DNA of 64,000 nucleotides from Streptomyces sp. 846.5 (GTDB lineage: Bacteria > Actinomycetota > Actinomycetes > Streptomycetales > Streptomycetaceae): NCBI RefSeq assembly GCF_004365705.1, contig NZ_SOBN01000001.1, positions 5,628,001-5,692,000 on the forward strand. Reading direction: 5' to 3'. The position numbers were made by a program, and so were the translations under genes. Each line of letters starts with the position of its first letter. Position 1 is the first letter of the stretch. The notes below the pieces were generated by a model that saw only the letters and a program-made list of their open reading frames with translations, had not been told where the DNA came from and searched no databases. This document shows, one piece after another, positions 3,863-17,200 of the stretch.

Positions 3863-4201
3863 CTACTCGTCAGAGGTCTTGCCTCGACGGGTAGCGGGGC
3901 GGCCGGCGGGAGCAGACTCCTCAGTCTGGTCCTCCGCTGTGACCTCGGCACCGAAGATCGCGGCGATTGCGTTGCGGCGCGTCTGCGCTTCACGCTCGAT
4001 CTCGGTGCGGATTGCCTCGGCCTTCTGGAGGGTAGCCGGATCGGACTTGGTCTTCTCGATCCAGTGCTCCAGGGCCAGGCGGATCTCCTCGGTGGTGCTG
4101 CGGCCGGTGATCTGGGCGACGACGTCCAGCTGTGCCCGCAGGTCCTCGGTAATGCGTACGGCCAGCGTTCGGAGCTGGCCTCCTACTGGTTGCTCGCTCA
4201 C
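3863..4201 (-). CDS. ribbon-helix-helix-type DNA-binding protein, 112 aa
   Basis: The chosen GTG start (4199-4201) is preceded by GGAGG at 4211-4215 with suitable spacing; a longer reading to 4327 lacks such support and adds a non-conserved-looking tail. The N-terminal half (LRTLAVRITEDLRAQLDVVA followed by TGRSTTEEIRLALEHWIE) has the beta-strand, helix, helix pattern of CopG/Arc-type ribbon-helix-helix repressors. The C-terminus is charged and low-complexity. Such proteins regulate plasmid, toxin-antitoxin or mobile-element genes, but no partner toxin is adjacent. Its target is unknown. Confidence 0.65.
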   Translation of the reverse strand: MSEQPVGGQLRTLAVRITEDLRAQLDVVAQITGRSTTEEIRLALEHWIEKTKSDPATLQKAEAIRTEIEREAQTRRNAIAAIFGAEVTAEDQTEESAPAGRPATRRGKTSDE

Positions 4202-4397
4202 GCGAGCCACCTCCTCGGTGAATTGCGGCCGACAAACCACTACTGGTTTATCTGGTAAGCCGCAGAATGCCGATGAGGTGCCAAAGTTGCACTTTTGTAG
4301 CTTCTTGCTGTTGATGACTATCAACACATTTTATTATGAATTATGCGTTGTGGAAAGTCAACACCTTCTTTGCTCTTGGTCCGTAAATCGAATCTAA

Positions 4398-4760
4398 TCA
4401 GTGATTGCTGGGCAAGAACGTGGGGATACCCTTGATCGGAACCTGAATAAGACCTTGGATACCGCCAATCGGATCCAGGCTCGTGGGTGGCCACCAGATC
4501 CTCGGATGCTGGGCTGGCCAGAGAGGTAGCAGTGCCTTTGCAAGGTCTTCTCCGAGATCGACTTCAAGCTCCATGTTCGGGCTCTCGTATCCGAAGATCT
4601 CAAAGAAAATATTTAGAAGGCGAAACCGTGCGAAGTATGCGGAAATGGCTACCGCTCGCTGGTTGCCTATGGTGGCGTGTGCCTTATGCGGCTGGAAGGC
4701 AAACTCGCCAAGCTGCGTCCCCGAGACGCCTGTGGGTGACCCATGCGGTGCCAATGCCAA
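4398..4760 (-). CDS. hypothetical protein or truncated gene remnant, up to 120 aa
   Basis: A minus-strand frame whose C-terminal 80 residues look protein-like (AYFARFRLLNIFFEIFGYES and LGEDLAKALLPLWPAQHP), while the N-terminal 35 do not. No good ribosome binding site is seen at the first possible start. The protein-like part stops about 100 bases from the inverted repeat at 4774-4886, so this may be the 3' end of a gene cut off by an insertion or deletion. No family is recognised. Confidence 0.25.
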   Translation of the reverse strand: MALAPHGSPTGVSGTQLGEFAFQPHKAHATIGNQRAVAISAYFARFRLLNIFFEIFGYESPNMELEVDLGEDLAKALLPLWPAQHPRIWWPPTSLDPIGGIQGLIQVPIKGIPTFLPSNH

Positions 4761-4773
4761 TGGTGGAGCGAGC

Positions 4774-4886
4774 CCTTTCCAACCTGGCGGTACGGGTGAT
4801 CTTGGTCGTGAACCCGTCTAGGAGCTTCACTGCGTCGTACAGCCCTCCGCCACCAACCCGCCAACCCCACCGCCAGGTTGGAAAGG
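4774..4886. repeat. 113-bp element bounded by perfect 18-bp inverted repeats
   Basis: cctttccaacctggcggt at 4774-4791 is repeated exactly inverted at 4869-4886. The enclosed 77 bases carry no start-to-stop frame. The layout suits a MITE-like remnant or a large RNA hairpin. It sits at the junction between AT-richer sequence and the GC-rich ABC transporter genes. Confidence 0.5.
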
Positions 4887-4893
4887 ACTCCGT

Positions 4894-4915
4894 GTCTCTG
4901 CGGATCCGCAGAGAC
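4894..4915. repeat. perfect 22-bp palindrome
   Basis: gtctctgcgga at 4894-4904 is followed immediately by its reverse complement, 8 bases after the 113-bp inverted-repeat element. It could be an operator for a dimeric regulator, a terminator stem without a loop, or the outer end of the same remnant. It is about 250 bases upstream of the ABC ATPase gene. Confidence 0.45.
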
Positions 4916-5167
4916 CGCTGGATCCTCATTCTTGGTCGATCTCACGGAGCTCGTACTCGTTCCGCCCCCCGCGCAGCTTTGCGGACACACCCCGACGCCG
5001 TAGGGCGTGAGAGGGATCGACTGGCGTTCGGTGTTGAGGGGGTGGTGTTGCCGCCTGTGGGTGTCTGTCTGCCCACTGCCGTCCAGGGGCGAAGCAAGCG
5101 ATCACATCAGCAGGATCCGTCACCGTGGTACACGCAGCGACAACAAGATGACGCTAGTCTGGGGCGC

Positions 5168-5893
5168 GTGCGACTCGACGGTATCGCTCTGCGCTACAGC
5201 CTCCGTGATCCCTGGGTGCTGCGCGGGGTTACCCTGGACGTCCCGATGGGCCGACTGATCCGGGCCCAAGGTGGCAATGGCGGCGGGAAGTCCACGTTGC
5301 TGCGGTTGGTCGCCGGGGTCTGCGCGCCGACCCGCGGCAGCGTGCTGGACCGGCCGGCGCGCCGGGTGTACGTGCCAGAGCGTTTCCCCGCTGCGCTTCC
5401 CTTTACTGCTCAAGACTACCTGTGCCACCTCGGCCGGATCCACGGCCTGCGCGGCGCGGAGCCCGCGCGCCGGGCCGGCCTGTTGCTGGAGCGCTTCGGC
5501 GCGGCCGAATTTGCCCGTACCCCGCTGGCCGAACTGTCTAAGGGGACCTGCCAAAAAGTCGCTGTCGCCCAGGCCCTCCTTGGCGAACCCGAACTGCTAG
5601 TCCTCGACGAAGCCTGGACCGGTCTGGACCAGGACGCCAGAGCCGAACTGGACGCCGCCGTGGACGAACACCTAGGGCAGGGCAGCACGGTCCTGTTCGT
5701 GGACCACGACCCGGCCCGGCTGGACACGCGCCCCACCTTGCGCTGGCAGGTCGGCAACGGTACGGTCACCGCGACCGACCAGGCGACGCCCCCCAGCGTC
5801 CTGCGGATCACCCTGACCGCCGACGCCTCGGTGCTGGCCGAACTGCGAGAAGATACGCGCGTTCGCATCGAACGCACCGAGGCTGTCAGATGA
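5168..5893 (+). CDS. ABC transporter ATP-binding protein, 241 aa
   Basis: Cytoplasmic ATPase of a small export-type ABC system. The GTG at 5168 is chosen because it places the conserved first strand (RLDGIALRY) at the N-terminus; upstream sequence in this frame is low-complexity. Visible motifs are Walker A GGNGGGKST near residue 35-43, a degenerate signature LSKGT where LSGGQ is usual, Walker B LLVLDEAW, and the H-loop in FVDHD. It overlaps the next gene by four bases (ATGA), so the two are translationally coupled and form one transporter. Only a weak ribosome binding site is visible. The substrate cannot be told from sequence. Confidence 0.85.
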   Translation: MRLDGIALRYSLRDPWVLRGVTLDVPMGRLIRAQGGNGGGKSTLLRLVAGVCAPTRGSVLDRPARRVYVPERFPAALPFTAQDYLCHLGRIHGLRGAEPARRAGLLLERFGAAEFARTPLAELSKGTCQKVAVAQALLGEPELLVLDEAWTGLDQDARAELDAAVDEHLGQGSTVLFVDHDPARLDTRPTLRWQVGNGTVTATDQATPPSVLRITLTADASVLAELREDTRVRIERTEAVR

Positions 5894-6582
5894 CCCGAAA
5901 CAGCGACCTGATGAGGTATCAACTCGCGCTGTTGCTCCGCTCCCAGCGCTGGCTCCCACCACTGCTGCTCTTCGCGCTGCTGATCGTCGCCGGGACCTTC
6001 GGCGGTCAGCAGTACGGCGACTCGCTCGGCTGGTGCGCTGCGATGCTGGTGCCCTGCGTCGGCTGGCTCACGCGCACTGTGCTCACCGGCGAACCGGACG
6101 CCGCCCGGGCCTGCGTCGCCGCCGCGAGTGGCCCGCGCCGGGCCCATTTTGCTGCGTTGAGCGCGGCGCTGGTGTTCGGTACTGCGCTGGCCGTGGTCGC
6201 CGGGGTGTTCGAATGGACCACCAGCGGCCCACCGCCCAATATCGCCCACCCGCCGCTCGTGATGATCGCTCGCGACGGTGGTATTGCCATCCTGGTCGGC
6301 CTGCTGGCCGGGGCCGCGCTCGGGGCGCTCTGCGCGCCCCCGGTGCTGAACCGTCCCGCCACCGGGGTGTTGACTCTAGCCGCGGCATCACTGCTGCTTC
6401 TGGTCGCCCCCTACTCTCCCGTCAACATCGCCGTCCGCGACGCCTTCACCTCCAACTCGTCCACCGCCACGACCACCTTCCCGGCACTGTCGCTACTGGG
6501 TGCGGTGACGCTTCTGGTGATCAGTTGGGCGGTAGCCCTGTGCCAGGCTGGGCAGCGGCCCCTCGGTCAGCAGTCGGCTTGA
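5890..6582 (+). CDS. ABC transporter membrane protein, 230 aa
   Basis: Integral membrane partner of the preceding ATPase, coupled through an ATGA overlap. About six hydrophobic segments are visible: near residues 18-35, 45-62, 90-108, 128-150, 158-176 and 200-220. There is no signal peptide or soluble domain. Size and order match two-component exporters of antibiotics or lipids in actinomycetes. The sequence is poorly conserved by nature and gives no hint of substrate. Confidence 0.75.
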   Translation: MTRNSDLMRYQLALLLRSQRWLPPLLLFALLIVAGTFGGQQYGDSLGWCAAMLVPCVGWLTRTVLTGEPDAARACVAAASGPRRAHFAALSAALVFGTALAVVAGVFEWTTSGPPPNIAHPPLVMIARDGGIAILVGLLAGAALGALCAPPVLNRPATGVLTLAAASLLLLVAPYSPVNIAVRDAFTSNSSTATTTFPALSLLGAVTLLVISWAVALCQAGQRPLGQQSA

Positions 6583-6821
6583 GTAGTGCTCTGCCCGGTA
6601 CCTCCTGAACTTCATCGAGGCAGATACGCTCTTCATGGAAGGAGCCGCCCACAGGGCCTGCTGGCAAGTCGATGCCGGGAGAAGTTCCAACGCCCATTGA
6701 GCCAGGTTGTCCCAATGAAGATCGGCATGGGCGATCCATTGCGCCTCGCCCATCGGTCGACGGCGTCCCGGCTTGTTCGTGCCTCGAGGAGCGCAACAAT
6801 ACGCGCCTCTGTCTCGTCCAA
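6583..6821 (-). pseudogene. frameshifted remnant of a small conserved actinomycete protein
   Basis: A start at 6821 opens a frame beginning MDETEARIVALLEARTSRD. The continuation that reads as protein jumps frames: HADLHWDNLAQWALELL lies in a second frame, GIDLPAGPVGGSFHEERICL in a third, and FRRYRAEH returns to the second. At least two and probably three frameshifts are therefore needed to rebuild one protein of about 85 residues. I recall similar small hypothetical proteins in streptomycetes but assign no function. It lies between the ABC transporter and lsr2. Confidence 0.45.
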
Positions 6822-6880
6822 GGTTGGGCTGCCTGCTACTAGTCACGGGTCGACCGTGACGCGACCCTGACAAGCACTGT

Positions 6881-7213
6881 TCAGTGAGCGGCCTGGAACT
6901 TCTCAATCACCTCGGCAGGCACCCGGCCACGGGCCGCTACCTCAATGCCCTGGGACTCAGCCCACGCACGCACCTTCGCCGGATCGGGCCGACTGCTGTC
7001 TCGTGTCAGGGCAGCTCGCTTCGCTCCACGCCGAGCGCCACCCTGCTTGCGTCCGGCGTCGGTGTAGGGCGCAAGCGCCTTGCGAAGCTTGTCCGCGTTC
7101 TTGGTACTCAGGTCGATTTCGTAAGACCGACCGTCAAGGGCGAAGGTGATGGTCTCATCAGCCTGCGACCCGTCCAAGTCGTCAGAGAGTTCAACGACTA
7201 CCTTCTGCGCCAT
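6881..7213 (-). CDS. lsr2: Lsr2-family nucleoid-associated protein, 110 aa
   Basis: Lsr2 is a DNA-bridging xenogeneic silencer that coats AT-rich, usually acquired, DNA. The N-terminal dimerisation part (AQKVVVELSDDLDG, FALDGRSYEIDL) and the C-terminal AT-hook-like domain with the R-G-R core at residues 95-97 (AARGRVPAEVIEKF) are both intact, and the length is typical. The ATG at 7213 has GAGG seven bases upstream. It stands next to an AT-richer operon (7.5-11.5 kb) of the type Lsr2 silences, and could be a second, locally acquired copy. That pairing is inference. Confidence 0.93.
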   Translation of the reverse strand: MAQKVVVELSDDLDGSQADETITFALDGRSYEIDLSTKNADKLRKALAPYTDAGRKQGGARRGAKRAALTRDSSRPDPAKVRAWAESQGIEVAARGRVPAEVIEKFQAAH

Positions 7214-7308
7214 GACTGTGCCTCTCTAGGTTGCCCGTGCTGCTATCTGCACGATGCCAGATGACGCCTGTTAGCGCAAAGGATGACTGAGAGACTCAAT
7301 CCATAAAG

Positions 7309-7542
7309 CTAAGCCGACTTTGGCAGCCGCAGGTCAGGATAAGGGGTAACCCGGTAGTCGCGGTCGTCGCCTGGCATCACGGAAGCGGTGGATCCGGCGC
7401 GTTTTGTCCACGACCCCTCACCGCTCTCCTCTGGGCTTGCGGGTTGATCCGTGTCTTCTCGATTTGTTGCCGGCCGAGCCTGTGAGTAGACACCCGTGAT
7501 GGGCTTGGCCGCAAAAGACTCCGGCACTGAAATGTCTTGCAA
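7309..7542 (-). CDS. doubtful small hypothetical protein, 77 aa
   Basis: This frame begins at a TTG 15 bases after the methyltransferase stop and could be the last gene of the operon above it. The sequence is hydrophilic and rich in Pro, Ser, Asp and Arg, with no recognisable domain or membrane segment. No ribosome binding site is evident. Codon usage is neither clearly coding nor clearly random. It may be chance reading of a 3' untranslated region. Confidence 0.22.
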   Translation of the reverse strand: MQDISVPESFAAKPITGVYSQARPATNREDTDQPASPEESGEGSWTKRAGSTASVMPGDDRDYRVTPYPDLRLPKSA

Positions 7543-7557
7543 CTACATCACCGATGT

Positions 7558-8058
7558 CTAACGGGGCGTTGCGACGAAGGTCATTATCGGATTTGCCGGA
7601 TATGATCTTCTCTTGATTGATATGTCGTAATCGGCTGAGTCAAGTTCTGCAGATACATCAAGACCGAGGTGACAGAGACCATGCTTGGCTCTAAATTTGT
7701 TGCGAAGCAATTGCACCCAAGCTAGGGGAAGTAACGGATCGCGGCAGTGCTCAAGCCCCACGTAGACGCCTTCAGGGCTTAATATCCGTTTTACCTCATC
7801 TAGGGCATGCGGGATATCTACCACGCTACAGAGGAGTCGGGAGCCAATCACAATGTCGGCATAAGCAGAGCGGACCGGTAGGGCATCGACCGAGCCCTGA
7901 ACACGCCGAGGTCCGGCAATGAATTTTGCATCAATCGATAAGTATAGGCAGTTGCTGAGGTTTAGCGAAGCCTTGCCGCCACCAATTTCAATAACTACCA
8001 ACCGTGGATCTAGAGGAGGCATCGCATCAAGTAGCATTCCGCGGAAGTCTAGCATCAA
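7558..8058 (-). CDS. class I SAM-dependent methyltransferase-like protein, 166 aa
   Basis: The fold signature is visible: a motif I variant VVIEIGGGKA at residues 21-30, an acidic strand end (SIDAK, 41-45), then GSVDALPVRSAYADIVI (56-71) and the late DEVKRILSPEGVYVGLEH segment typical of Methyltransf_11 enzymes. It is shorter than usual and lacks an N-terminal cap. Its ATG overlaps the stop of the upstream membrane-protein gene (TGATG), so it belongs to the operon descending from 11,490. In this setting a peptide, lipid or isoprenoid product is the likely substrate, possibly a carboxyl methylation; that is inference. Confidence 0.7.
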   Translation of the reverse strand: MMLDFRGMLLDAMPPLDPRLVVIEIGGGKASLNLSNCLYLSIDAKFIAGPRRVQGSVDALPVRSAYADIVIGSRLLCSVVDIPHALDEVKRILSPEGVYVGLEHCRDPLLPLAWVQLLRNKFRAKHGLCHLGLDVSAELDSADYDISIKRRSYPANPIMTFVATPR

Positions 8059-8885
8059 GAGCTCTCTGAGATTAGAGCCTGGGAGAGTTCTTCTCTTAAG
8101 CTCATGACATCAACCGTGCGAGCGTACGTCACCGTTCTCAAAAATAGAAGCGGGATGACAAGAGCGATTGATCCTAGAACGTGGACCCAAATCGAGTCCG
8201 AGGAAACAATTACGCTGATGTATAGGACGGCTCCCGCGAGAAGATATTCCAAGCCAATGCGCGCGAGGTAGTAGAAATATAGAGAGCGCGTAAATTGCCA
8301 TCCGAGCGCGTGTATGGTGCCCACCCACCTTGCTCTTCGCTCAATGGGGAGTACCGAGATTAGAGCAGTGCTCGCCAACCACGAGATGTACAGCGGGTAT
8401 CCGACTCCGCACAGAAGGAGGATTGCCAGAGTAACATCAACCTTGAAAGCCTTCCATGCCATCCAGCCGGCCACCCACAGGACCGTAAAGATAATCAGCG
8501 TAACCATGAAAAGTCCGGCGCTCACTAGCGCATACCAAACGAAGATAGCCGGCTTGAGTCCCGTCAGAGGTCTTGCCATTCGGACTGGATGCCCTACGGA
8601 AATCCGATACATCTGCTGTGTGACAATCAGCGTGAGCGCGACGCGTGTCAACCAAATTCCCACGACTGCGGCAAGGACGGTCCAACTTGCCAGAGAGCCG
8701 AGTTCGCTTGGTGCTGTATCGAAGAGCCATCCGCTGCGAAAGACAGGAGTCAGGATATGAGGTACTGATACGAGCGTATTGTAGATCGCCACGACGAGGA
8801 GCATGGACAGAAATGCGGACGACCGTAGTTCACGAGCGAATAGAATTGCTCCGCTCTTCATGCTGCTTGTAATTTTGAGCCTCAT
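8055..8885 (-). CDS. polytopic membrane protein of unknown function, 276 aa
   Basis: About six membrane segments are visible, near residues 22-42, 65-88, 113-140, 146-172, 200-228 and 230-250. No ABC, MFS, rhomboid or CPBP (EExxxR) motif was found. The gene starts 18 bases after the desaturase stop and overlaps the methyltransferase start, so it is co-transcribed with them. It could export or anchor the product of the operon, but nothing in the sequence proves this. Base composition is clearly less GC-rich than in the flanking regions. Confidence 0.7.
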   Translation of the reverse strand: MRLKITSSMKSGAILFARELRSSAFLSMLLVVAIYNTLVSVPHILTPVFRSGWLFDTAPSELGSLASWTVLAAVVGIWLTRVALTLIVTQQMYRISVGHPVRMARPLTGLKPAIFVWYALVSAGLFMVTLIIFTVLWVAGWMAWKAFKVDVTLAILLLCGVGYPLYISWLASTALISVLPIERRARWVGTIHALGWQFTRSLYFYYLARIGLEYLLAGAVLYISVIVSSDSIWVHVLGSIALVIPLLFLRTVTYARTVDVMSLREELSQALISESS

Positions 8886-8903
8886 TCAATTTGATTATAA
8901 CAT

Positions 8904-9899
8904 CTAACTATTTCTCTTGACATACGTACGCCCTCGCCGGTAGTCGTACGCGGCAACATAGTCGCTCTCCGGCCTGTCGAGCTCCGCGACCCAATCCAGT
9001 GTCAGATCAGATACTGCAACAGGTCCGCGAAATTGCTTCACGATGTCTACGACATAGGGGGTGATCCCGTATTTTGGCCTTATAGTCAAGCGGAGGCGTT
9101 CCTCCACCCTTCCTAGCTTCTCAGGCGAGTATAGGTCACTGGCTCGCAGGCTCATATCGGCGTGGTGCAGGAAGTGGGCGGTTGACCCGTAGGTGATCCA
9201 CGAAAACGGCTTGGGCAGATAATAGGTATGGGCACACACTCGATCCGTGGAAGGGTCGATCCCAGTCAGCCCGTAGTGTGCGATATTTTGCTGAATGCAC
9301 CAAAGAAAGCAAAGCCCGAACCAAAATCCGATGAAGACGGGAAGCCCTGCCATCGCGATGTAGTAGATCGGATATGCAATCGTCAGCGCCATCGCCACTA
9401 TATACCTCCCAGTGACGCGATCATGGTAGCCAATCTGCGTCAAATAGGACTGGTATTTTAGCGGAAAGAAGGGACGAGCGATCCCCGCTACTTGCCAGCA
9501 GAATGCTGGCAAGAGAATCAGGCCGATGTAATAGCGAAAGCGCTGACCCAGAGACGGCTTACCAGGAGAAATGTCCGGTGCCCACCCGCTGCCGTACCTA
9601 CCCATCCGATGATGGAAGAGATGAGCCAGGCGGAGTATTTCGATATTTTGAAGCTGAAATGCCATTCCAACTGTTGCGATGACCCGTGGCGCATACAGAT
9701 CGGGGTCTTCGCCTTCGTTGGATTCTATGTGAAGTGCCTCGTGAGTAGCATAGATTACGGGCTCTATGGCGCAGAGTGCCACTACTAGTCCAAGCCACCA
9801 GGGAGCAAGCGGCGCTACGAGAAGCAATGCAGCAGATAGCCAGAATATGAAGGTTCCAAGCATCTTTCCGGGCGGGGCTCCAGTTTTCTTGTCTCTCAT
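8904..9899 (-). CDS. membrane fatty-acid desaturase-like di-iron enzyme, 331 aa
   Basis: Three histidine boxes of the membrane di-iron desaturase/hydroxylase family are present: HEALH at residues 53-57, HLFHH at 93-97 and HFLHH at 242-246, with an extra HY at 208-209. Hydrophobic stretches around 15-55, 122-146 and 165-204 fit four membrane spans. Such enzymes desaturate or hydroxylate acyl or isoprenoid chains using O2. The start overlaps the preceding gene by four bases (ATGA). Its place behind an isoprenoid-synthase-like gene suggests it tailors a lipid or prenyl group; that is inference. Confidence 0.85.
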   Translation of the reverse strand: MRDKKTGAPPGKMLGTFIFWLSAALLLVAPLAPWWLGLVVALCAIEPVIYATHEALHIESNEGEDPDLYAPRVIATVGMAFQLQNIEILRLAHLFHHRMGRYGSGWAPDISPGKPSLGQRFRYYIGLILLPAFCWQVAGIARPFFPLKYQSYLTQIGYHDRVTGRYIVAMALTIAYPIYYIAMAGLPVFIGFWFGLCFLWCIQQNIAHYGLTGIDPSTDRVCAHTYYLPKPFSWITYGSTAHFLHHADMSLRASDLYSPEKLGRVEERLRLTIRPKYGITPYVVDIVKQFRGPVAVSDLTLDWVAELDRPESDYVAAYDYRRGRTYVKRNS

Positions 9900-10453
9900 T
9901 TCCTCTCCATCCCTTCCAGGGGCTTCCCGCTTTTTATGTCGATTGGATTCTTTTCAATCCTTGGGAGTCGTACTTTTGCGAACCGGATAATTCGAAGACT
10001 TCGAAACTCCCCAGTGGGCGTGAAGCCCAACAGGGAAGCTGCCTCCTTCAGCTTTGGCGAGCTACTCCAGAATGCAAGCCGCGGCCACGAGTCGACCTTG
10101 AAATAGTTGTCAAAAACTGCAATGCCCTGCTGGAATACCTGGTCATGCCGGAACTCCCGCCGCAGGCTCGCATTGAATATGGTGCCGCGAGATCCCACGA
10201 GAAGCCCGCCAACTACTCTGCTGTTGCGTCGTACCACGAGGCAGTGAATATTGACGCCTCTGGATACGGAGAAAACGCCTTCTAGCACTGCCAGCGCAAG
10301 GAGAACACACCTTATTGGAGGAGAACATGAAGCACGCGCAGCCGAGCTCTGATAGAACTCGTAGATTATACTGGCGACGTCTCGCGCGCTGGCTCTCTTG
10401 GCTTCAATAACCAAGTCGCCAAACGAGTCAGTGCTGCTGGCTAATCTTGTCAA
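9896..10453 (-). CDS. GNAT-like acyltransferase (tentative), about 185 aa
   Basis: The segment LVVRRNSRVVGGLLVGSRG looks like the central beta-hairpin of a GNAT fold, and KEAASLLGFTPTGEF matches the usual final helix and LGF turn. The acetyl-CoA pyrophosphate loop is not clearly recognisable, so the call is tentative. No ATG or GTG start is available; a TTG at 10453 preceded by AGGAG is preferred over a TTG at 10486. It overlaps the upstream isoprenoid-enzyme gene by about 26 bases and the desaturase by four, implying tight coupling. Confidence 0.5.
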   Translation of the reverse strand: MTRLASSTDSFGDLVIEAKRASARDVASIIYEFYQSSAARASCSPPIRCVLLALAVLEGVFSVSRGVNIHCLVVRRNSRVVGGLLVGSRGTIFNASLRREFRHDQVFQQGIAVFDNYFKVDSWPRLAFWSSSPKLKEAASLLGFTPTGEFRSLRIIRFAKVRLPRIEKNPIDIKSGKPLEGMERK

Positions 10454-11297
10454 TGTTCTCCTTGACAATACTGTGCAGGTGCACAATTATGGACACCATT
10501 TTTTCGGTAGTTCCGCTTATTTTGCGGACATTCGATGTGATATCGAGGAGCTCTCGATGGCATTCGTTCAATTCGCGGAGCAGTAGCCCTTCCAGGTAGA
10601 CGGAACGAAGAACTTCCGGATAGAATCTCTCGCCGTATTCTGCAATGCTGCTTCCCGATTGCTCTAGGAAGCTCTGAACGACTGGCGTGTATCTTCCCTG
10701 GAGGAGATCATCCTCCCAATCGCTCAGATCGTCACAACGTTGGGCAACTATCAGATATCGCATTAGTAGTGGCTTGAGCGCTGACGCATAGATTGCTACA
10801 CCATGTCGAGCAATAGCCTCAAAGTAGCTAAGAACCGGAGCTGACCGTCCTAGGACGTTCTCCTCGTCTACATAGCCCTGGCGACTCGAGTACCTTTGGA
10901 GTTCGACCTCCAGTGCTTGGGCTTGAGTTCCACTCCACTCGAATGCAATTTTGGCGTCAGGCCATCCCAGTGCCGCTGCGGCGACCGATACCTCAACCTC
11001 CTTCAATGCTGGAATTAGCTTTACGTCTACATTGGCTACTTGTCCATCATTGACATCATCTACCAAAAATGCTTGTCCAAGCGCCAATTGGTAGCTGACA
11101 TCTAAAAGAGACTGAGTTTTTTGGTTCATGTCAGGAGAAACTGCTTCTGCCATAGCTTGGATGTGTCCCTGGCCGATAGGCTTGAGGCGATTTCTACAAC
11201 AAATGGCCCATGCCCTCGCGGCGAGCGTGGGTTCAAGATGCGCTGCGAGGGCATGGGCCAATGTGCTGTACTCCCGAGGTAGATTACCCGGGGCCAC
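10428..11297 (-). CDS. class I isoprenoid biosynthesis enzyme-like protein, 289 aa
   Basis: All-helical protein with two Asp-rich motifs like those that bind Mg-diphosphate in prenyl- and terpene-synthases: FLVDDVNDGQ (Asp82-Asp86 of the longer reading) and CDDLSDWEDDL (about 190-200). Size and spacing fit the class I isoprenoid-synthase superfamily, which includes ComQ, the enzyme that prenylates the ComX pheromone in Bacillus. The GTG at 11297 has GGAG six bases upstream; an ATG at 11303 lies too close to that site. The start sits inside the 3' end of the 56-codon peptide gene, giving direct coupling. Substrate is unknown; peptide prenylation is hypothesised from context only. Confidence 0.72.
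   Translation of the reverse strand: MAPGNLPREYSTLAHALAAHLEPTLAARAWAICCRNRLKPIGQGHIQAMAEAVSPDMNQKTQSLLDVSYQLALGQAFLVDDVNDGQVANVDVKLIPALKEVEVSVAAAALGWPDAKIAFEWSGTQAQALEVELQRYSSRQGYVDEENVLGRSAPVLSYFEAIARHGVAIYASALKPLLMRYLIVAQRCDDLSDWEDDLLQGRYTPVVQSFLEQSGSSIAEYGERFYPEVLRSVYLEGLLLRELNECHRELLDITSNVRKISGTTEKMVSIIVHLHSIVKENIDKISQQH
11204..11260. repeat. perfect 16-bp inverted repeat inside the start of the isoprenoid-enzyme gene
   Basis: tggcccatgccctcgc (11204-11219) and gcgagggcatgggcca (11245-11260) are exact reverse complements with a 25-base loop. In mRNA this is a strong hairpin within the first 35 codons. It may attenuate expression of the operon relative to the peptide gene, protect a 5' transcript end, or be an operator. 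Confidence 0.5.
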
Positions 11298-11454
11298 AGG
11301 CATCTCCGGTCATCATCGGAATCAGGGCCGTACGGACAGCTTCGATCGCTTCAAGCTCCTCAAACGTGAGGAACGGATCGCTGGTTTTGCGACTTTCTAC
11401 TGTCACTATCTGATCATTCATGTCCAGGCGCCTCTCGATTTGATCAAGCTGCAC
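11284..11454 (-). CDS. 56-aa peptide, candidate prenylated or ribosomal natural-product precursor
   Basis: Read directly from the gap: GTG at 11452-11454 with GGAGG at 11463-11467 and an 8-base spacer, and TAA at 11284-11286. The product is acidic and helical in the middle (DPFLTFEELEAIEAVRTAL) and ends IPMMTGDACGPG. Its only Cys is the fourth residue from the C-terminus, the position of the prenylated Cys in eukaryotic CaaX boxes. There is no Trp, so it differs from ComX. It is the first gene of the operon and its 3' end overlaps the isoprenoid-enzyme start. The frame is well supported; the modification is a hypothesis. Confidence 0.6.
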   Translation of the reverse strand: MQLDQIERRLDMNDQIVTVESRKTSDPFLTFEELEAIEAVRTALIPMMTGDACGPG

Positions 11455-11481
11455 AGTGAGCCCCTCCGAAGAGAGGCCTAA

Positions 11482-11490
11482 TTTATAGCA
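11482..11490 (-). promoter_or_regulatory. extended -10 promoter of the peptide/isoprenoid operon
   Basis: On the minus strand tgctataaa reads as TGn followed by TATAAA, an extended -10. Initiation would fall roughly 20 bases upstream of the peptide GTG, leaving room for its ribosome binding site. No good -35 is seen, as is usual for extended -10 promoters. Confidence 0.4.
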
Positions 11491-11620
11491 CGCATGCCAA
11501 TGGATGCGCTACGGATAGCCATCCAGATGTAGTGAGCATCTTCGATCCAGGGATCTTGGCCGAGCTAGCTCCTATGTTTTGGGAGGAGTTCTCTGTGCCG
11601 CTTAGAGCCCCAATAGTCGC

Positions 11621-12151
11621 TTACAGCTTCCGGAGCCCGTCCAGCACCTTGCGCAACAGATGAGGATCCGGCAGCGGCAGTTGAATAGTCGGCGTCTTCG
11701 CCTGCCGTCGCGGAAGTGGTGGTACGGGTGCTTCAAGGGCCAGCTCAGCCCAGACGACCTTGCCGCCGCCCTTGGGGTAGAAGTGGCCCACCTGTCGGGC
11801 GACACTGCGCACGATGAACAACCCGCGCCCGCCGTCGGCGTCGTCCGAAGCGCCGACCGCTGGTTGAACTGGTGGTTCCAGCGACACGTCCCATACCTGG
11901 ATGGAGACACCATCTCCATGCGCCGCGACGCGCACGGTCAGGAGCGCCACCTTCTCCAGGTCACCCCAGGTTGGATCGGGTGTGACTACCCCTGTGGCCT
12001 TGACTGCGTTGGTCACCAGTTCAGAGGCGATCAGCTCGGCTGCGTCGATCTGATCGGGCAGGTTCCAGCGCAGCAGTGTGTGACGCACGAACATCCGGGA
12101 ACAGCTCACCGCCGTCGGTAGTGCAGCGAGGTTGAGCGAGGCGGGCTGCAT
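11621..12151 (-). CDS. RsbW/SpoIIAB-like ATP-binding protein (HATPase_c_2), 176 aa
   Basis: Small GHKL ATPase related to anti-sigma factors. Visible parts are the first strand and helix (LNLAALPTAVSCSRMFVRHTL), the N-box ELVTNAVKATG, the G1-like VWDVSLEPP and the G2 loop DDADGGRGLFIVRSVARQVG. The C-terminal 40 residues are an extra Pro/Leu-rich tail. The ATG at 12151 is chosen because it starts just before the first strand; a GTG at 12211 would add 20 residues and overlap the upstream gene. It is the last gene of a four-gene operon starting at 13,050. Its partner sigma or anti-anti-sigma factor is not in the window. Confidence 0.78.
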   Translation of the reverse strand: MQPASLNLAALPTAVSCSRMFVRHTLLRWNLPDQIDAAELIASELVTNAVKATGVVTPDPTWGDLEKVALLTVRVAAHGDGVSIQVWDVSLEPPVQPAVGASDDADGGRGLFIVRSVARQVGHFYPKGGGKVVWAELALEAPVPPLPRRQAKTPTIQLPLPDPHLLRKVLDGLRKL

Positions 12152-12161
12152 GGCGTGCCGT

Positions 12162-12410
12162 TCACCCTGCTTTGCTGCCGCTGACGTCTTCCCGAGCACT
12201 GCTGATGTCACTTACGTTCCCCTTGGCTGTTCGCTTTCCGGTGCGCTCAGCCCGTTCATGGACCGTGTCTGCCAAGACGGCGAGGCGCTTTGCGAAGTGC
12301 TGCTGTTCCTTCTGGGTGAGCCCGTCAGTGACGAGGTGAGTGGTGAACTTCCCGGCGTCTCGGATCAGCTGGGAGAACTGCACGAGGATCGCTTCATCGA
12401 GCTCGTCCAC
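12162..12410 (-). CDS. small helical protein of unknown function, 82 aa
   Basis: The GTG at 12408-12410 shares a base with the TAG of the upstream gene (TAGTG). The protein is mostly amphipathic helix (LVQFSQLIRDAGKFTTHLV, QKEQQHFAKRLAVLADTVHE) with a basic, probably disordered tail. No domain is recognised. Its fixed place between two resolvase-like genes and an RsbW-like ATPase suggests a regulatory partner role, which is inference. Confidence 0.6.
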   Translation of the reverse strand: MDELDEAILVQFSQLIRDAGKFTTHLVTDGLTQKEQQHFAKRLAVLADTVHERAERTGKRTAKGNVSDISSAREDVSGSKAG

Positions 12411-12730
12411 TAGTCGCGCCTCGATTCATGCATGGCTGCACCGGTTTCGAGTTCCACCCGGTCGACCATGAGGACCTGGACTATCTGCGACTCAGCCAGC
12501 TGTCCCAGCGAAAGCACAACAACATGACGTGCCTCTGACCGTTGAAGCTCGTGGATCACGGCTAAGGCCGCCTGAGAGCCGCTGTCGTACTCATAAAAGA
12601 TAGTTCCGAGGCAGTACCCCTCGCCCTCGGCGAAGGTCGTCAGCGCTTGCTCGATGAGCTGGACTTCGAGATCGTCCATGTCATCTGTGACCCGCATGTA
12701 GCCGTGGATTAGGGGCTTCAAGTCGCTCAT
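12410..12730 (-). CDS. small resolvase-like protein without catalytic serine, 106 aa
   Basis: Start ATG at 12730 overlaps the upstream stop (ATGA); a longer reading to 12829 only adds an out-of-family tail. The fold is that of the serine-recombinase N-terminal domain: an opening strand HGYMRV, a helix, FAEGEGYCLGTIFYEYDSGS, then RHVVVLSLGQLAES. The residue expected to be the catalytic Ser after RV is Thr/Asp (RVTDD), and there is no DNA-binding C-terminal domain. It is a paralogue of the next upstream gene. A non-catalytic regulatory or scaffold role is likely. Confidence 0.65.
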   Translation of the reverse strand: MSDLKPLIHGYMRVTDDMDDLEVQLIEQALTTFAEGEGYCLGTIFYEYDSGSQAALAVIHELQRSEARHVVVLSLGQLAESQIVQVLMVDRVELETGAAMHESRRD

Positions 12731-13050
12731 CGGCGCTGCCCTTGAACGACCCAGATACGTGCGCCTGTCTCCTGCTCGATGTGCTGGCGCATCGCCCCCT
12801 GGAGCCCAGGCAGACGCGCGAAGTGCCACAGGGAGGGCACGATGATGTCCTTCACGTCGTGGCGCTTCAACGCATCGAGCATCGCCTCGAATGCGGACTC
12901 CGATCGCCTGATGTATTCGGTGAACACTTGGTCGAGAGTGAAGCCCTCACGCGCCGCGTATTCGGCCAACTCATGCTTGGCCCGCTCGGCTTCGTCATCC
13001 CTCTCGTCATTGCTCACGACGCGCAAGTAGCCGAAAATGGCAGGTCGCAT
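12727..13050 (-). CDS. small resolvase-like protein, paralogue of its neighbour, 107 aa
   Basis: First gene of the operon; the ATG at 13050 follows a strong site (ggggagga) about six bases upstream. It begins IFGYLRVVSNDERDD, the serine-resolvase signature GYxRVS with the Ser displaced by one residue, and continues AAREGFTLDQVFTEYIRRSE and VKDIIVPSLWHFARL, equivalent to the dimer-forming part of the fold. There is no HTH or zinc domain, so it cannot be a full recombinase. Small proteins of this type recur next to XRE-TPR regulators in actinomycetes as I recall; function unknown. Confidence 0.65.
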   Translation of the reverse strand: MRPAIFGYLRVVSNDERDDEAERAKHELAEYAAREGFTLDQVFTEYIRRSESAFEAMLDALKRHDVKDIIVPSLWHFARLPGLQGAMRQHIEQETGARIWVVQGQRR

Positions 13051-13138
13051 AGGGTTCCTCCCCGCTTGATGGAAGCCGGTCCAACAGCGGGCTCTGGGCC
13101 AGGCGCTGCTGGACCGGCGTACTAGCCAGAAAAGCCCT

Positions 13139-13219
13139 TTGACCTGCGGAAACCCAGAGCGTAAGAGAGGCGGAAGCGACGCAAAAATGAGGCAGGGGTG
13201 GCTTTGACCTGCAAAAACG
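13139..13219. promoter_or_regulatory. two direct repeats in the divergent intergenic region, candidate operator
   Basis: tttgacctgcggaaac at 13139-13154 and tttgacctgcaaaaac at 13204-13219 match at 14 of 16 positions and lie 65 bp apart in the same orientation. They sit between the divergent resolvase-like operon and the XRE-TPR gene. The first is followed 17 bases later by taagag, so it may also serve as a -35. They are plausible binding sites for the XRE regulator. Confidence 0.4.
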
Positions 13220-13269
13220 GAACCCGGGTGGCTATGGTGGGGAGGCCCCGGCTTCGGAAGGAATTAGTG

Positions 13270-14436
13270 ATGGCGGCCAAGCGCGTACGACTCGCTCAGC
13301 GTCGCAAGGCAGCAGGCTACAGCCAAGAAAAGCTCGCCGAGCTCCTGGGTGTCGAACGGTCAACGGTCGTGCGGTGGGAAGGGGCTGAGACTGAGCCCCA
13401 ACCTTGGCTACGTCCAAAACTCGCGGCCATGCTCAAGGTGACATCCGTCGAACTACAGGTACTGCTCGACGATGTGACGGTCGTTCAAGCCCAGCCGAGC
13501 CAGCGTATGAGCTACGTGCTCGAACACCCCTCCCGCGTCGACCTGGTGGCCGTCGCGTACCTGCACGAACGTATTCGTCAGCTCGATGAGCGCTACGACC
13601 AGGCACCCTCGACTGCACTCCTCGGACCCGCCGGCCAGGTCCATGGGCAGGTGAAGTTCCTTCGAGAGAACGCAACCAATCCGCGGGTGCGAAAAGCACT
13701 GTACGAGGTGGAGGCTGAGTCAGCGACGTTCATGGGCCAGCTTGTCTGGGACGTCAGCCAACGGCGCGATCATGAAACGCCGATCACCTACCTGGATGAG
13801 GCAGTTGCGGCTGCCCGCCAGGTGCAAGATCCCTGTGCAGCGGCGTATGCGACACTCCGCAAGTCCTTCGTCGCCCTCTACGGGGAGAAGGACCCCGTCA
13901 AGGGGTCATCGCTCGCGGGAGAGGCGGCCAACGTCGCCCAGTTGTGTAGTCCATCGCTCACGGGGTTGGGCCTGCTCCACGTCGCCGAGGGCAAGGCGAT
14001 GACGGGCGACCTTAGATCCTGCGAAGAGGCGTTGAAGAAGGCGGAGGCCCAGTTCGATCGGGTCGATGCCGATGACGTCACGGCGGAGTACTACACGATC
14101 AACGAGTTCAACCGTCTGGCTGGGTCGTGCTACCTCTTTCTCGATCTCCCTGAGCGAGCCGAGCCCATCCTCGAGATGACGGCCAGGGCGCTGGCAGGCA
14201 AGAAGAAGAGTCAGGCCATCGCCCTTGGTAACCTCACGATCTCCATGATCCGTCAGCGCAAGCTCGACGAGGCGGCCACCACGATGCACCGGACAATCGA
14301 TGCGGTGGAGCTGACACGTGGCGGAGGGGGTCTTAACCTGGCATTCGCTGCTGGACGAGAGCTTCGGGAGTGGCGACACGAGCCGTGGGTCCAGGACATC
14401 AACGATCGTCTGCTGGCCCTCATGGCAGTGATCTAG
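13270..14436 (+). CDS. XRE-family transcriptional regulator with TPR-like C-terminus, 388 aa
   Basis: The ATG at 13270 is preceded by ggaagga with good spacing. Residues 1-60 form a helix-turn-helix (VRLAQRRKAAGYSQEKLAEL, then GVERSTVVRWE). The remainder is helical with repeat-like segments (ATLRKSFVALYGEKDP, ALGNLTISMIRQRKLDEAAT), like the TPR sensor half of streptomycete XRE-TPR regulators that bind small ligands or peptides. It is divergent from the resolvase-like operon and followed 11 bases later by the cyclo-ligase gene. The direct repeats at 13139 and 13204 lie in its upstream region. Confidence 0.85.
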   Translation: MAAKRVRLAQRRKAAGYSQEKLAELLGVERSTVVRWEGAETEPQPWLRPKLAAMLKVTSVELQVLLDDVTVVQAQPSQRMSYVLEHPSRVDLVAVAYLHERIRQLDERYDQAPSTALLGPAGQVHGQVKFLRENATNPRVRKALYEVEAESATFMGQLVWDVSQRRDHETPITYLDEAVAAARQVQDPCAAAYATLRKSFVALYGEKDPVKGSSLAGEAANVAQLCSPSLTGLGLLHVAEGKAMTGDLRSCEEALKKAEAQFDRVDADDVTAEYYTINEFNRLAGSCYLFLDLPERAEPILEMTARALAGKKKSQAIALGNLTISMIRQRKLDEAATTMHRTIDAVELTRGGGGLNLAFAAGRELREWRHEPWVQDINDRLLALMAVI

Positions 14437-14447
14437 AGGTAGGGCAC

Positions 14448-15164
14448 GTGAGCAACATCGACCAGGCCAAGGCAGCCATCCGCGACCATGTGTGGCGACT
14501 GCTTGAACGTGAAGGTGCAGTACCGGAGGGGTCGTATGGCAAGATCCCCGGCTTCTACGGCACCGAGGCGACGGCCGAGCGTCTGGCTGGGCTGGACGTC
14601 TGGAAGCACTCCCGGACGGTCAAGGCGAATCCCGACTGGGCGCAGTTGCCGGTCCGCATCCGAGCACTCAAGGACGGCAAGCTGCTCTATATGGCCGTTC
14701 CCAGGATGGCGAGTCTCCAGCCGTTCTTTTTGCTCGATCCTGTGTCCCTGGACTTGTCGCCCGAGCAGGCCGCTGAGAAGCAGGGAGCTGCGCAGGTCGC
14801 TCGCCGTGTCGGTGTTGAGGACATGCGCCCCATCGACGTGGTGATCTGCGGCAGTGTGGCCGTGAACCGTTCCGGTGCGCGCATCGGCAAGGGCGCCGGG
14901 TACTCCGACCTGGAGGTGGCACTCCTCGTCGAGGCTGGTCTCGTGACGGACGCTACGGTGATCGTTGCCACGGTGCATCAGCTCCAGGTGATCGACGAGG
15001 AGATCCCCGAGACCGAGCACGACTTTAGTGTCGATCTAATCGTCACGCCGGACGAGGTGATCGAATGTGCCAATCGCCGCCGGCCGCCGGGCCTCGTCTG
15101 GAACGACCTCACAGCGGACAAGATTGCGGCGATCCCGGTGCTGGCTGCCCGGACGCAAAGTTAA
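14448..15164 (+). CDS. 5-formyltetrahydrofolate cyclo-ligase-like protein, 238 aa
   Basis: Predicted to convert 5-formyltetrahydrofolate to methenyl-tetrahydrofolate with ATP. The signature GKGAGYSDLEVALL corresponds to the family's GxGxGYYD loop, and the N-terminal helix (AAIRDHVWRLLEREG) and late HDFSVDLIVTPDEVI match. The usual double Tyr of the loop is Tyr-Ser here. The GTG at 14448 follows the XRE stop by 11 bases. A fragment of a second copy lies near 26.6 kb, again beside regulator or recombinase debris, suggesting that this gene travels with such modules. It may not be a housekeeping enzyme. Confidence 0.8.
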   Translation: MSNIDQAKAAIRDHVWRLLEREGAVPEGSYGKIPGFYGTEATAERLAGLDVWKHSRTVKANPDWAQLPVRIRALKDGKLLYMAVPRMASLQPFFLLDPVSLDLSPEQAAEKQGAAQVARRVGVEDMRPIDVVICGSVAVNRSGARIGKGAGYSDLEVALLVEAGLVTDATVIVATVHQLQVIDEEIPETEHDFSVDLIVTPDEVIECANRRRPPGLVWNDLTADKIAAIPVLAARTQS

Positions 15165-15235
15165 GAAGTGGAGAGACAGGTTTCCCGTTGAAGCTGGCTG
15201 CTTGTATTTGTAGACCTTAATATCTAACAGCGACT

Positions 15236-15272
15236 CCCGGGATGCGATGACGGCATGTCATCGCATCCCGGG
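15236..15272. terminator. strong bidirectional terminator hairpin
   Basis: cccgggatgcgatgac (15236-15251) pairs perfectly with gtcatcgcatcccggg (15257-15272) across a five-base loop. It lies between the convergent cyclo-ligase and CHAP-protein genes. There is little T-run on either side, as is common in high-GC actinomycetes. Confidence 0.8.
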
Positions 15273-15331
15273 GGCTTGCCTTCTCGACTCGTTGCGCACG
15301 AGGCTGACCGGTCTGGTCACTCGTTCATCCT

Positions 15332-16993
15332 CTACGACAGGTTCGCCAGCAAAGTCGTCTTCGGGCCGTTGCCGTTCCCGAAGTACGTCTCGTAGGCGTA
15401 CCCGTTCGACGTGACGCTAAAGATGTGCGTATAGCCATCCGTGGTCGTCATGGCACTGACTCCCATAACCGTGGAGCCGTCGGGCGTTCCGAGTAGGTCC
15501 GACTGGGGACTGACGCCGCTCTTGTAGTAGGTTTCCCAGGCGCTTCCGGACTGGATGCCCGAGTAGACGTGTATGTAGCCGTCCGACGTCAACATGCTGG
15601 TGACGCTGTCAACCTTGACCAGGTTGGTGAGCGGCAACCATCTGGGACTGACGCCGCCCGCGTAATAGAGGTCGCCGACGTCTCCAGATGTCATGCTGGC
15701 AATCACATGGACGTAGCCGTCGGGGGTCTGAAGGCTACTCACACTTGTGACTGGCCACCCCGTAGGCGTTCCGAGTAGGTCCGACTTGGGGTTGGGAGTG
15801 CCGGTGCCCGGTTCGTAGGTCTCCCAGAGGCTGCCTCCTCTGTTGCCGCTGAAGACATGGATGTAGCCAGCCGAATCGTACAGGCTGCTGATCCCATTGA
15901 CCGGCCCGCCAGGTCCGGACAGATCCACCATCAGATTCGTCACCGGCCCACCACCGTTGCCGAATTTCGTCTCGTAGACCTTGCCGTCCAGAGTGGCGCT
16001 GAACACGTGAATGAAACCGTCCGGCGTCAGCATGCTGCTGATGCTTGTAATCGGCTGAGTGCCGTTCGGCGTACTGAGAAGATCTTGTGTCGGGGAAATA
16101 CCGTTCCCGTAGTACGTCTCCCAGACCTTGCCTCCGGCGTCGCCGTCGAAGACATGGATTATGCCGTCAGGAGTCTGCATGCTGCTGACACTCGTGACGG
16201 CGGACTGATCCGGTGTACCGAGGAGATCTGGTGTCGGGGACGTTCCATTCCCGTAATAAATCTCCCAAATACTGCCGGTTGCATTACCTGCGAACACGTG
16301 GATGTAACCATCCGATGTGTGAAGACTGCTCACGGTGAGGAGCTTGGGACCGGCGGGGGGTGGCGAACCGCCACCCGATAGATCCTTGAAGTGGATGTAC
16401 TGCACCTGCTCGGTACTCGACGCCGTAATGGTCCGTGTGTGATAAGCACCATCGAAGCCGCCGCCCTTTACGACGTGGTTATACTCCTCGATGTTGACTG
16501 AGCCGCTTGTGTTGACAGAGCTGACGTAGGCGACATGTCCCCACGCCTCGGTGCTGACTCCCTGGTCCTTCGAATTCGCAGGCCACCAAGCAACAGCACC
16601 TGCCGCTGCCGTGGTGTTGACGGTGTAGGTATGTCCGGGCTGCTGAGCCCAGTTGCCCCAGTCTGCACCATTTCCGATTCCACCTGGAAGATTGAAACCG
16701 TTGTCGTTATGCAGACGCCACGCAACGAAGTCGGTGCAGTTGCGGTAGTTGTAACCGTAGGTTGAGGTCCCCTTGCCGTTGCTGTCGGTCCAGTATGAAC
16801 CCGCTGAGTTTGTCCCCGGACCGTTGTAGCTGGCGAACGGATAGTCGTTCGTGCCGATGGCTGCCATTGCTGGTGTCGCCGTCACTACTGTCCCTCCTGT
16901 TAAGCCAACGAGCACAAGGCTCATGGTCAATAGGAGGGCACGAAGACGCGTGAGCGTCTTACGTCTAACCTTTTCAGTTATCAATGTTCTCAT
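15332..16993 (-). CDS. secreted CHAP-domain peptidoglycan hydrolase with tectonin-like beta-propeller, 553 aa
   Basis: A Sec signal peptide is clear: basic RKTLTRLRAL, a hydrophobic core at residues 20-40, and a cleavage site after PAMA (about 44). The CHAP amidase/peptidase domain follows, with the catalytic pair in NCTDFVAW (Cys86) and WGHVAYV (His153). After a Gly/Pro linker come about seven repeats of some 48 residues with the theme DGYIHVF-G-x-x-ETYYGNG-x-DLLGTP, which fit a seven-bladed propeller that may bind sugars. The ATG at 16993 is chosen because it begins the signal peptide. It is a single-gene unit flanked by terminators. Confidence 0.85.
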   Translation of the reverse strand: MRTLITEKVRRKTLTRLRALLLTMSLVLVGLTGGTVVTATPAMAAIGTNDYPFASYNGPGTNSAGSYWTDSNGKGTSTYGYNYRNCTDFVAWRLHNDNGFNLPGGIGNGADWGNWAQQPGHTYTVNTTAAAGAVAWWPANSKDQGVSTEAWGHVAYVSSVNTSGSVNIEEYNHVVKGGGFDGAYHTRTITASSTEQVQYIHFKDLSGGGSPPPAGPKLLTVSSLHTSDGYIHVFAGNATGSIWEIYYGNGTSPTPDLLGTPDQSAVTSVSSMQTPDGIIHVFDGDAGGKVWETYYGNGISPTQDLLSTPNGTQPITSISSMLTPDGFIHVFSATLDGKVYETKFGNGGGPVTNLMVDLSGPGGPVNGISSLYDSAGYIHVFSGNRGGSLWETYEPGTGTPNPKSDLLGTPTGWPVTSVSSLQTPDGYVHVIASMTSGDVGDLYYAGGVSPRWLPLTNLVKVDSVTSMLTSDGYIHVYSGIQSGSAWETYYKSGVSPQSDLLGTPDGSTVMGVSAMTTTDGYTHIFSVTSNGYAYETYFGNGNGPKTTLLANLS

Positions 16994-17200
16994 CCTCTCC
17001 CCGGATGCTATTGAGGGGCACATAGCGGAACACCTAAGGCCACTCTCCTGATCGCTCAATCGTTCTATCTTGAATTACCTCTCCTATTCGTTACTCGTTT
17101 AAACACCCCCGCCCCAATGATTCCTTGCGATCATCAGAACAGGAGCTTCCGGCGTGACTGCCGGGAACATTGGTGGAGATGGGGCTTGTGGGACAGGGAA

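Follow-up and report, generated by a model that had tools for sequence, protein, structure and literature searches.

Can an enzyme related to the trans-isoprenyl diphosphate synthases (trans-IDS) lipidate a ribosomal peptide on cysteine? The question is raised by a six-gene operon in a 64,000-nucleotide stretch of the Streptomyces sp. 846.5 genome (contig NZ_SOBN01000001.1, positions 5,628,001 to 5,692,000; this whole stretch is the window, and coordinates are counted from its first base). There, the gene for a 56-residue candidate precursor adjoins that of a probable trans-IDS-like enzyme, an arrangement, seen in one genome, that would suit ribosomally synthesized and post-translationally modified peptides (RiPPs). 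Peptide prenylation is the best single explanation of the operon, held at slightly under an even chance. In a specific form that we consider doubtful, the enzyme would S-prenylate the Cys fourth from the peptide end, and the desaturase and methyltransferase would finish the lipopeptide. The argument starts from the gene order, the peptide's translation signals, the predicted trans-IDS fold, the conserved motifs and the missing motifs of the isopentenyl diphosphate (IPP) site; from these we infer the peptide as substrate, its Cys as the modified site, the length of the prenyl chain and what each downstream gene does.

In the list of open reading frames (ORFs) and their translations, all six ORFs lie on the minus strand, and the operon runs from 11454 to 7558:

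11284..11454, minus: peptide gene, 56 aa, candidate precursor with C-terminus TGDACGPG (supported by Shine-Dalgarno site and codon score)
11461..11467, minus: GGAGGGG, ribosome binding site for the peptide, separated from the GTG by 7 nt; -10.0 kcal/mol
11296..11298, minus: single Cys codon, proposed prenylation site (from the sequence)
10428..11303, minus: gene of the trans-IDS-like enzyme, maximal ORF of 291 aa
11046..11060, minus: first Asp-rich motif (FARM), DDVND, residues 82-86 of 291
10719..10733, minus: second Asp-rich motif (SARM), DDLSD, residues 191-195 of 291, with Q188 before it
11204..11260, minus: 20-bp inverted repeat (RNA hairpin), just past the stop codon of the peptide gene, either preceding the enzyme frame or within it
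9896..10453, minus: gene of a 185-aa protein without an identified family, overlapping the end of the enzyme gene
8904..9899, minus: membrane di-iron desaturase/hydroxylase family protein, PF00487, boxes HEALH, HLFHH and HFLHH
8055..8885, minus: membrane protein without family, six hydrophobic segments
7558..8058, minus: class I S-adenosylmethionine-dependent methyltransferase, start TTG 8058 or ATG 8055

The candidate precursor peptide

The translation signals of the short ORF identify it as a real gene. Its strong ribosome binding site, already pointed out in an earlier note on this DNA, precedes a GTG start at 11454 and forms an anti-Shine-Dalgarno duplex of a stability that 2.35% of 2000 random positions in the operon also reach. 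With operon codon statistics, the frame scores +5.4, and the other two frames score -15.5 and -10.9. An alternative start, ATG 11421, would give 45 aa from a fair ribosome site (-7.7 kcal/mol). The peptide is acidic, as that note had described, with a net charge of -6, no Trp, Tyr or His, and one Cys, fourth from the end. A scan for small ORFs (20-90 codons, minus strand of 7300-11640, ribosome site dG <= -7) gave nine start sites, of which only the two of this peptide lead to a product with Cys or Trp among its last four residues. An overlapping 42-codon ORF (11126-11254), in which a Trp is the eighth residue from the end, was rejected; its ribosome site is weaker (-5.9) and its start lies inside the hairpin. 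A DNA pattern of the last eight peptide residues occurred at 87 loci, eight of which had a stop directly after it; a peptide-like leader, judged by eye, was found in none.

The peptide is likely, by analogy, to be the acceptor because its 56 residues and its Cys fourth from the end match the rule for ComX pheromone precursors. In the available parts of PMC5331326, six of seven ComX precursors, those of six Bacillus strains, are 53-58 aa long and carry the prenylated Trp at the third or fourth position from the end, natto ComX (73 aa, Trp 20th from the end) being the exception, and geranylation requires the Trp second to fourth from the end. The parallel with ComX drawn in the earlier note is thereby closer than claimed in precursor size and nucleophile position, and parts ways at the residue itself: ComX is modified on Trp, which the operon peptide lacks.

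Fold, motifs and start of the enzyme

Both Asp-rich motifs, from which an isoprenoid enzyme had been guessed, are of the DDxxD type and recur in all three members of the family. The DDxxD of the first is invariant, as are, for the second, the preceding Gln (Q188; Q138 in the numbering of the 241-aa form), DDL and the final D. Structure prediction of the 291-aa form backs the guess: trans-isoprenyl diphosphate synthases, or such domains within larger proteins, make up, by title, the best 50 matches of each Protein Data Bank (PDB) comparison, and the enzyme probably has this class I all-alpha fold. A viral structure library gave no match at E <= 0.001, its first row being a viral trans-prenyltransferase (E 0.039). 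Neither PF00348, PF19086 nor another isoprenoid-synthase Pfam family matched the 291-aa form or the three members of 241-242 aa; the latter gave chance-level matches in one member each (Imm70, E 0.053; Noggin, 0.1).

By its motifs, the enzyme is unlike the ordinary synthases compared with it, a set of 14 loci from four genomes of the host genus, read on the strands given in the match table. The two Asp-rich motifs are 109 residues apart, compared with 126-156 in the synthase loci and, for the distance to the NSE motif, 127-153 in all 20 examined terpene synthase loci of the genus (of 21 matches). The IPP-site motif GGKR.RP, found as a like pattern at 12 of the 14 synthase loci, is missing, as is any GGK, and so is the RR that follows the FARM at all 14. 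An Arg-Ser pair lies 38 residues before the SARM, where a pattern for the helix-F Lys-Thr/Ser pair falls 41-43 residues before it in 12/14 synthase loci. From the spacing, the missing motifs and a likeness to PalQ described below, the allylic-diphosphate side seems to be retained and the IPP side lost, as expected with another acceptor.

The same comparison bears on a different role, in which the enzyme would synthesise or cyclise a small isoprenoid, or transfer a prenyl group to a small molecule, for the desaturase, the 185-aa protein and the methyltransferase to decorate, and translation of the short ORF, together with the hairpin, would set enzyme expression. Such an enzyme would be expected neither to deviate in motif spacing from all 14 synthase and 20 terpene-synthase loci nor to lack the IPP-site motifs. 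Both Asp-rich motifs are, however, intact as in ordinary synthases, the recognised partner enzymes could all act on lipids, and none of the operon genes was recognised as RiPP-specific. A hairpin of -40 kcal/mol directly after the short ORF suits a regulatory leader; such leader peptides are usually shorter, and the codon score of the short ORF is strong. Taken together, we regard this role as unlikely.

The position of the hairpin depends on the enzyme start, for which ATG 11303, GTG 11297, TTG 11261 and ATG 11153 (241 aa, the start used in databases) are possible. The earlier note had the enzyme gene overlapping the peptide gene, which holds for 11303 and for 11297, whose GTG overlaps the Cys codon, and fails for 11153. 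The short form is favoured by the annotations of the two other members, which begin at the same alignment column, by the neutral codon score of the N-terminal extension (-0.4; the other frames score +0.3 and -11.3, and the next 150 bases +5.5), by its high second-position G+C (0.56 vs 0.36) and by the hairpin within it. For the long form count the structure match, which begins at residue 9, a GGAG 5-6 nt ahead of GTG 11297 (ATG 11153 has a weaker site, at a distance of 11 nt), and the helices usually needed ahead of the first Asp-rich motif. On balance, the long form is somewhat more probable.

The inverted repeat has one mismatch in 20 bp (95% complementary). The RNA fold of 11140-11300 has a z of -4.75, none of 200 shuffles being as stable, and the hairpin alone reaches -40.1 kcal/mol; against Rfam it gave a single match (E 0.096), far below the family cut-off. 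With a start at 11297 or 11303, the hairpin falls within codons 15-34 of the 291-codon frame; with 11153, it is an intergenic element between precursor and enzyme genes, where elements of this kind are common. With either start, the hairpin could reduce how much enzyme is made compared with peptide.

A pair of overlapping, perhaps coupled genes and an acidic first product would also suit a small partner subunit of the enzyme. At 56 residues, the protein is far below known small subunits, and the model of the extended enzyme is already predicted to form a full synthase fold. Heterodimeric prenyl diphosphate synthases are known (3aqb, by title), and the overlap may reflect coupling; even so, this role appears very improbable.

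Known prenylation systems and the proposed mechanism

Like ComQ and ComX, the operon pairs an enzyme of the trans-IDS superfamily, first Asp-rich motif kept, with a small precursor that fits the ComX rule in size and position of the nucleophile. Unlike ComQ, which according to the available text of PMC5331326 needs N/GDxxx (a pseudo-SARM), the enzyme carries DDLSD. The peptide has no Trp, and the motif is DDxxD, a form (DDxx(D)) that the same text calls unsuitable for Trp. Furthermore, the operon has extra lipid-tailoring genes relative to ComQXPA, and the scanned genes included no recognisable two-component pair. A 196-aa protein encoded at 11621-12211 (minus), 166 bases upstream of the peptide gene, has a histidine-kinase-like ATPase domain (PF13581, 1.6e-8) and a weak RsbA-type anti-sigma match (0.0016); it looks anti-sigma-type and is no full kinase.

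PalQ of Paenibacillus alvei has a similar motif architecture. Judged by residue positions in the available part of PMC10853753, PalQ has D89/D93, D200/D204 and Q197, a distance of 111, and the operon enzyme has D82/D86, D191/D195 and Q188, a distance of 109; both have a Gln three residues before the SARM and a SARM Asp at +4. Its substrate PalX, in contrast, combines a leader of the nitrile-hydratase type with a Trp at the C-terminus.

The eukaryotic CaaX system and fungal a-factor share with the operon a Cys fourth from the C-terminus and a methyltransferase. The earlier note's CaaX position stands in that sense, while CGPG is not C-aliphatic-aliphatic-X and forms no CaaX box in the eukaryotic sense. 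The operon methyltransferase belongs to Methyltransf_11 and has no hydrophobic segment, whereas ICMT is a membrane protein; none of the six genes matched a CaaX-protease profile, and the predicted fold of the enzyme is that of trans-IDS, not of protein farnesyltransferase (FTase). Canonical trans-isoprenyl diphosphate synthases differ in turn by their GGKR.RP, the RR after the FARM, the PF00348 match and the longer motif spacing. Overall, the interpretation offered in the earlier note is partly supported.

In the proposed mechanism, the product of the operon would be a lipidated ribosomal peptide. The 56-residue precursor would be bound by the trans-IDS-like enzyme, whose first Asp-rich motif would hold the allylic diphosphate, the IPP site having been lost, and the prenyl group would pass to the single Cys, at the fourth position from the end. 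Subsequent tailoring of the lipid or the peptide would fall to the desaturase, the 185-aa protein and the methyltransferase, while the membrane protein would have a part in export or immunity.

Several observations weigh against peptide prenylation. Every characterised trans-IDS-like peptide prenyltransferase, namely ComQ, PalQ and the P domain of ChrPC, modifies Trp according to section 2.4 of PMC13290415. In the accessible text of PMC10853753, PalQ prenylated only Trp peptides and no other electron-rich residue in the assay, and since PalQ acts on Trp with D200/D204, DDxxD is compatible with Trp. The Gln before the SARM is common to all 14 ordinary host synthase loci and hence not specific. 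The loss of IPP motifs was judged by pattern, without a residue-level structure alignment. The fold model, built from three sequences in the long form, has a predicted local distance difference test score (pLDDT) of 67.9 in one of five models and 43-47 in the others; the 241-aa form (pLDDT 55) gave no such fold match: most of the matches listed are generic helical proteins, and the two synthase chains among them have E values of 2.4 and 3.4. hhalign of the enzyme with the host synthases, oriented by motif in agreement with the match-table strands, found no match, and the same test also failed to join synthases to terpene synthases. No protein homologue of the 56-aa peptide was found, so that its Cys position is known from one sequence, and the six operon genes showed no recognisable protease or peptidase, RiPP recognition domain or dedicated exporter.

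Downstream genes, distribution and meaning

The desaturase (PF00487, 5e-12, with its three His boxes), the methyltransferase (Methyltransf_11, PF08241, 6e-7) and the membrane protein (six segments in a simple hydropathy count, no family match) agree with what the earlier note had named. Its GNAT-like label fared less well: the 185-aa protein, which lengthens to 196 aa from TTG 10486, had no Pfam match to E = 10 and no NCBIfam match to E = 1, in searches whose HMMER filters drop most matches above E 0.1. A distant GNAT is still compatible with this result, and the label serves as a lead only. It would matter if the peptide were instead acylated by this protein with a fatty acid made unsaturated by the operon's desaturase, the isoprenoid enzyme serving something else. 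Goadvionins are acylated ribosomal peptides made by a GNAT, and nostolysamides are another such case in the available part of PMC13060382. With the GNAT label lacking profile support and no acyl-chain-making genes recognised in the operon, acylation seems improbable.

The operon is very rare. Among 5.8 billion proteins, searched through shared 5-residue words (remoter relatives are possible), the enzyme had three homologues, its own sequence included; the others are ACRAWF_11205 (Streptomyces sp. L7) and GCM10023192_34570 (Amycolatopsis samaneae). A profile search added no member at E <= 10 among the 7996 candidates of a capped set, and of 109 stretches matching a pattern in genome contigs none was confirmed as the enzyme. 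In whole genomes, it was found in 1/14 of the genus, 1/394 of the family and 1/394 of the class, each time the host's own, and in none of those from the genus of Amycolatopsis orientalis (0/3 and 0/80), its family (0/297) or one further genus of the host's family (0/392); these draws overlap, and the last sets, having no known carrier, show rarity only. The desaturase was likewise found in one of 394 genomes, its own (E <= 1e-8). The enzyme, desaturase, membrane protein and 185-aa protein, the four queried, had no match in plasmids, nor had the enzyme in viral contigs. Among the titles and abstract starts of the open-access matches listed, no actinobacterial peptide-prenylating operon of such layout appeared, which is weak evidence of novelty as subscription literature lies mostly outside.

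The G+C content of the operon is 50-54%, compared with mostly 59-71% in the measured flanks (4000-16000, 600-base windows), and the DNA just beyond it (13198-15164) has a match in one of 13 other genus genomes, a single 56-base piece. The operon is therefore probably acquired, foreign DNA. A second low-G+C stretch (54-56%) lies at 4000-4899. About 340 bases downstream of the operon, an Lsr2-type xenogeneic silencer is encoded (6881-7213, minus; PF11774, 4e-29). A 77-codon ORF with a TTG start (7309-7542, minus) and a good ribosome site (-9.1 kcal/mol) follows the methyltransferase ORF after 15 bases; it could be a seventh gene or a chance ORF. A short ORF at 12727-13050 (minus) encodes a resolvase N-terminal domain (PF00239, 1e-7, covering positions 1-100 of the 145 in the profile) and is a possible mobile-element remnant beside the operon. 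Near the operon, on the opposite strand (4487-6582, plus), the gene of an ABC ATPase (PF00005 at residues 245-376; PADLOC mad3, 4e-14; true start probably internal) is followed by an overlapping one for a hydrophobic protein of 230 aa, and the two perhaps make up an ABC transporter. Further away are a 1217-aa protein (51-3704, plus), possibly a defence ATPase, with a weak NACHT/STAND-type match below cut-off (PF05729, 4.5e-4; PADLOC PifA, 0.002), and a 575-aa protein with a CHAP domain (15332-17059, minus; PF05257, 7e-16).

All characterised members of the class use Trp, and therefore prenylation of Cys would be new. If the proposal is correct, the enzyme would be the first of the trans-IDS-like peptide enzymes to act on a residue other than Trp, by the account in the available part of PMC13290415. 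It would also be the first in an actinomycete, as far as the literature search shows. It would offer a small enzyme for prenylating thiols and point to a type of lipopeptide that profile-based genome mining overlooks because the enzyme matches no profile. More broadly, it would represent a bacterial counterpart of CaaX-type lipidation, achieved by a trans-IDS-like enzyme instead of FTase, and would link bacterial ribosomal lipopeptides to the Ras/a-factor chemistry of eukaryotes.
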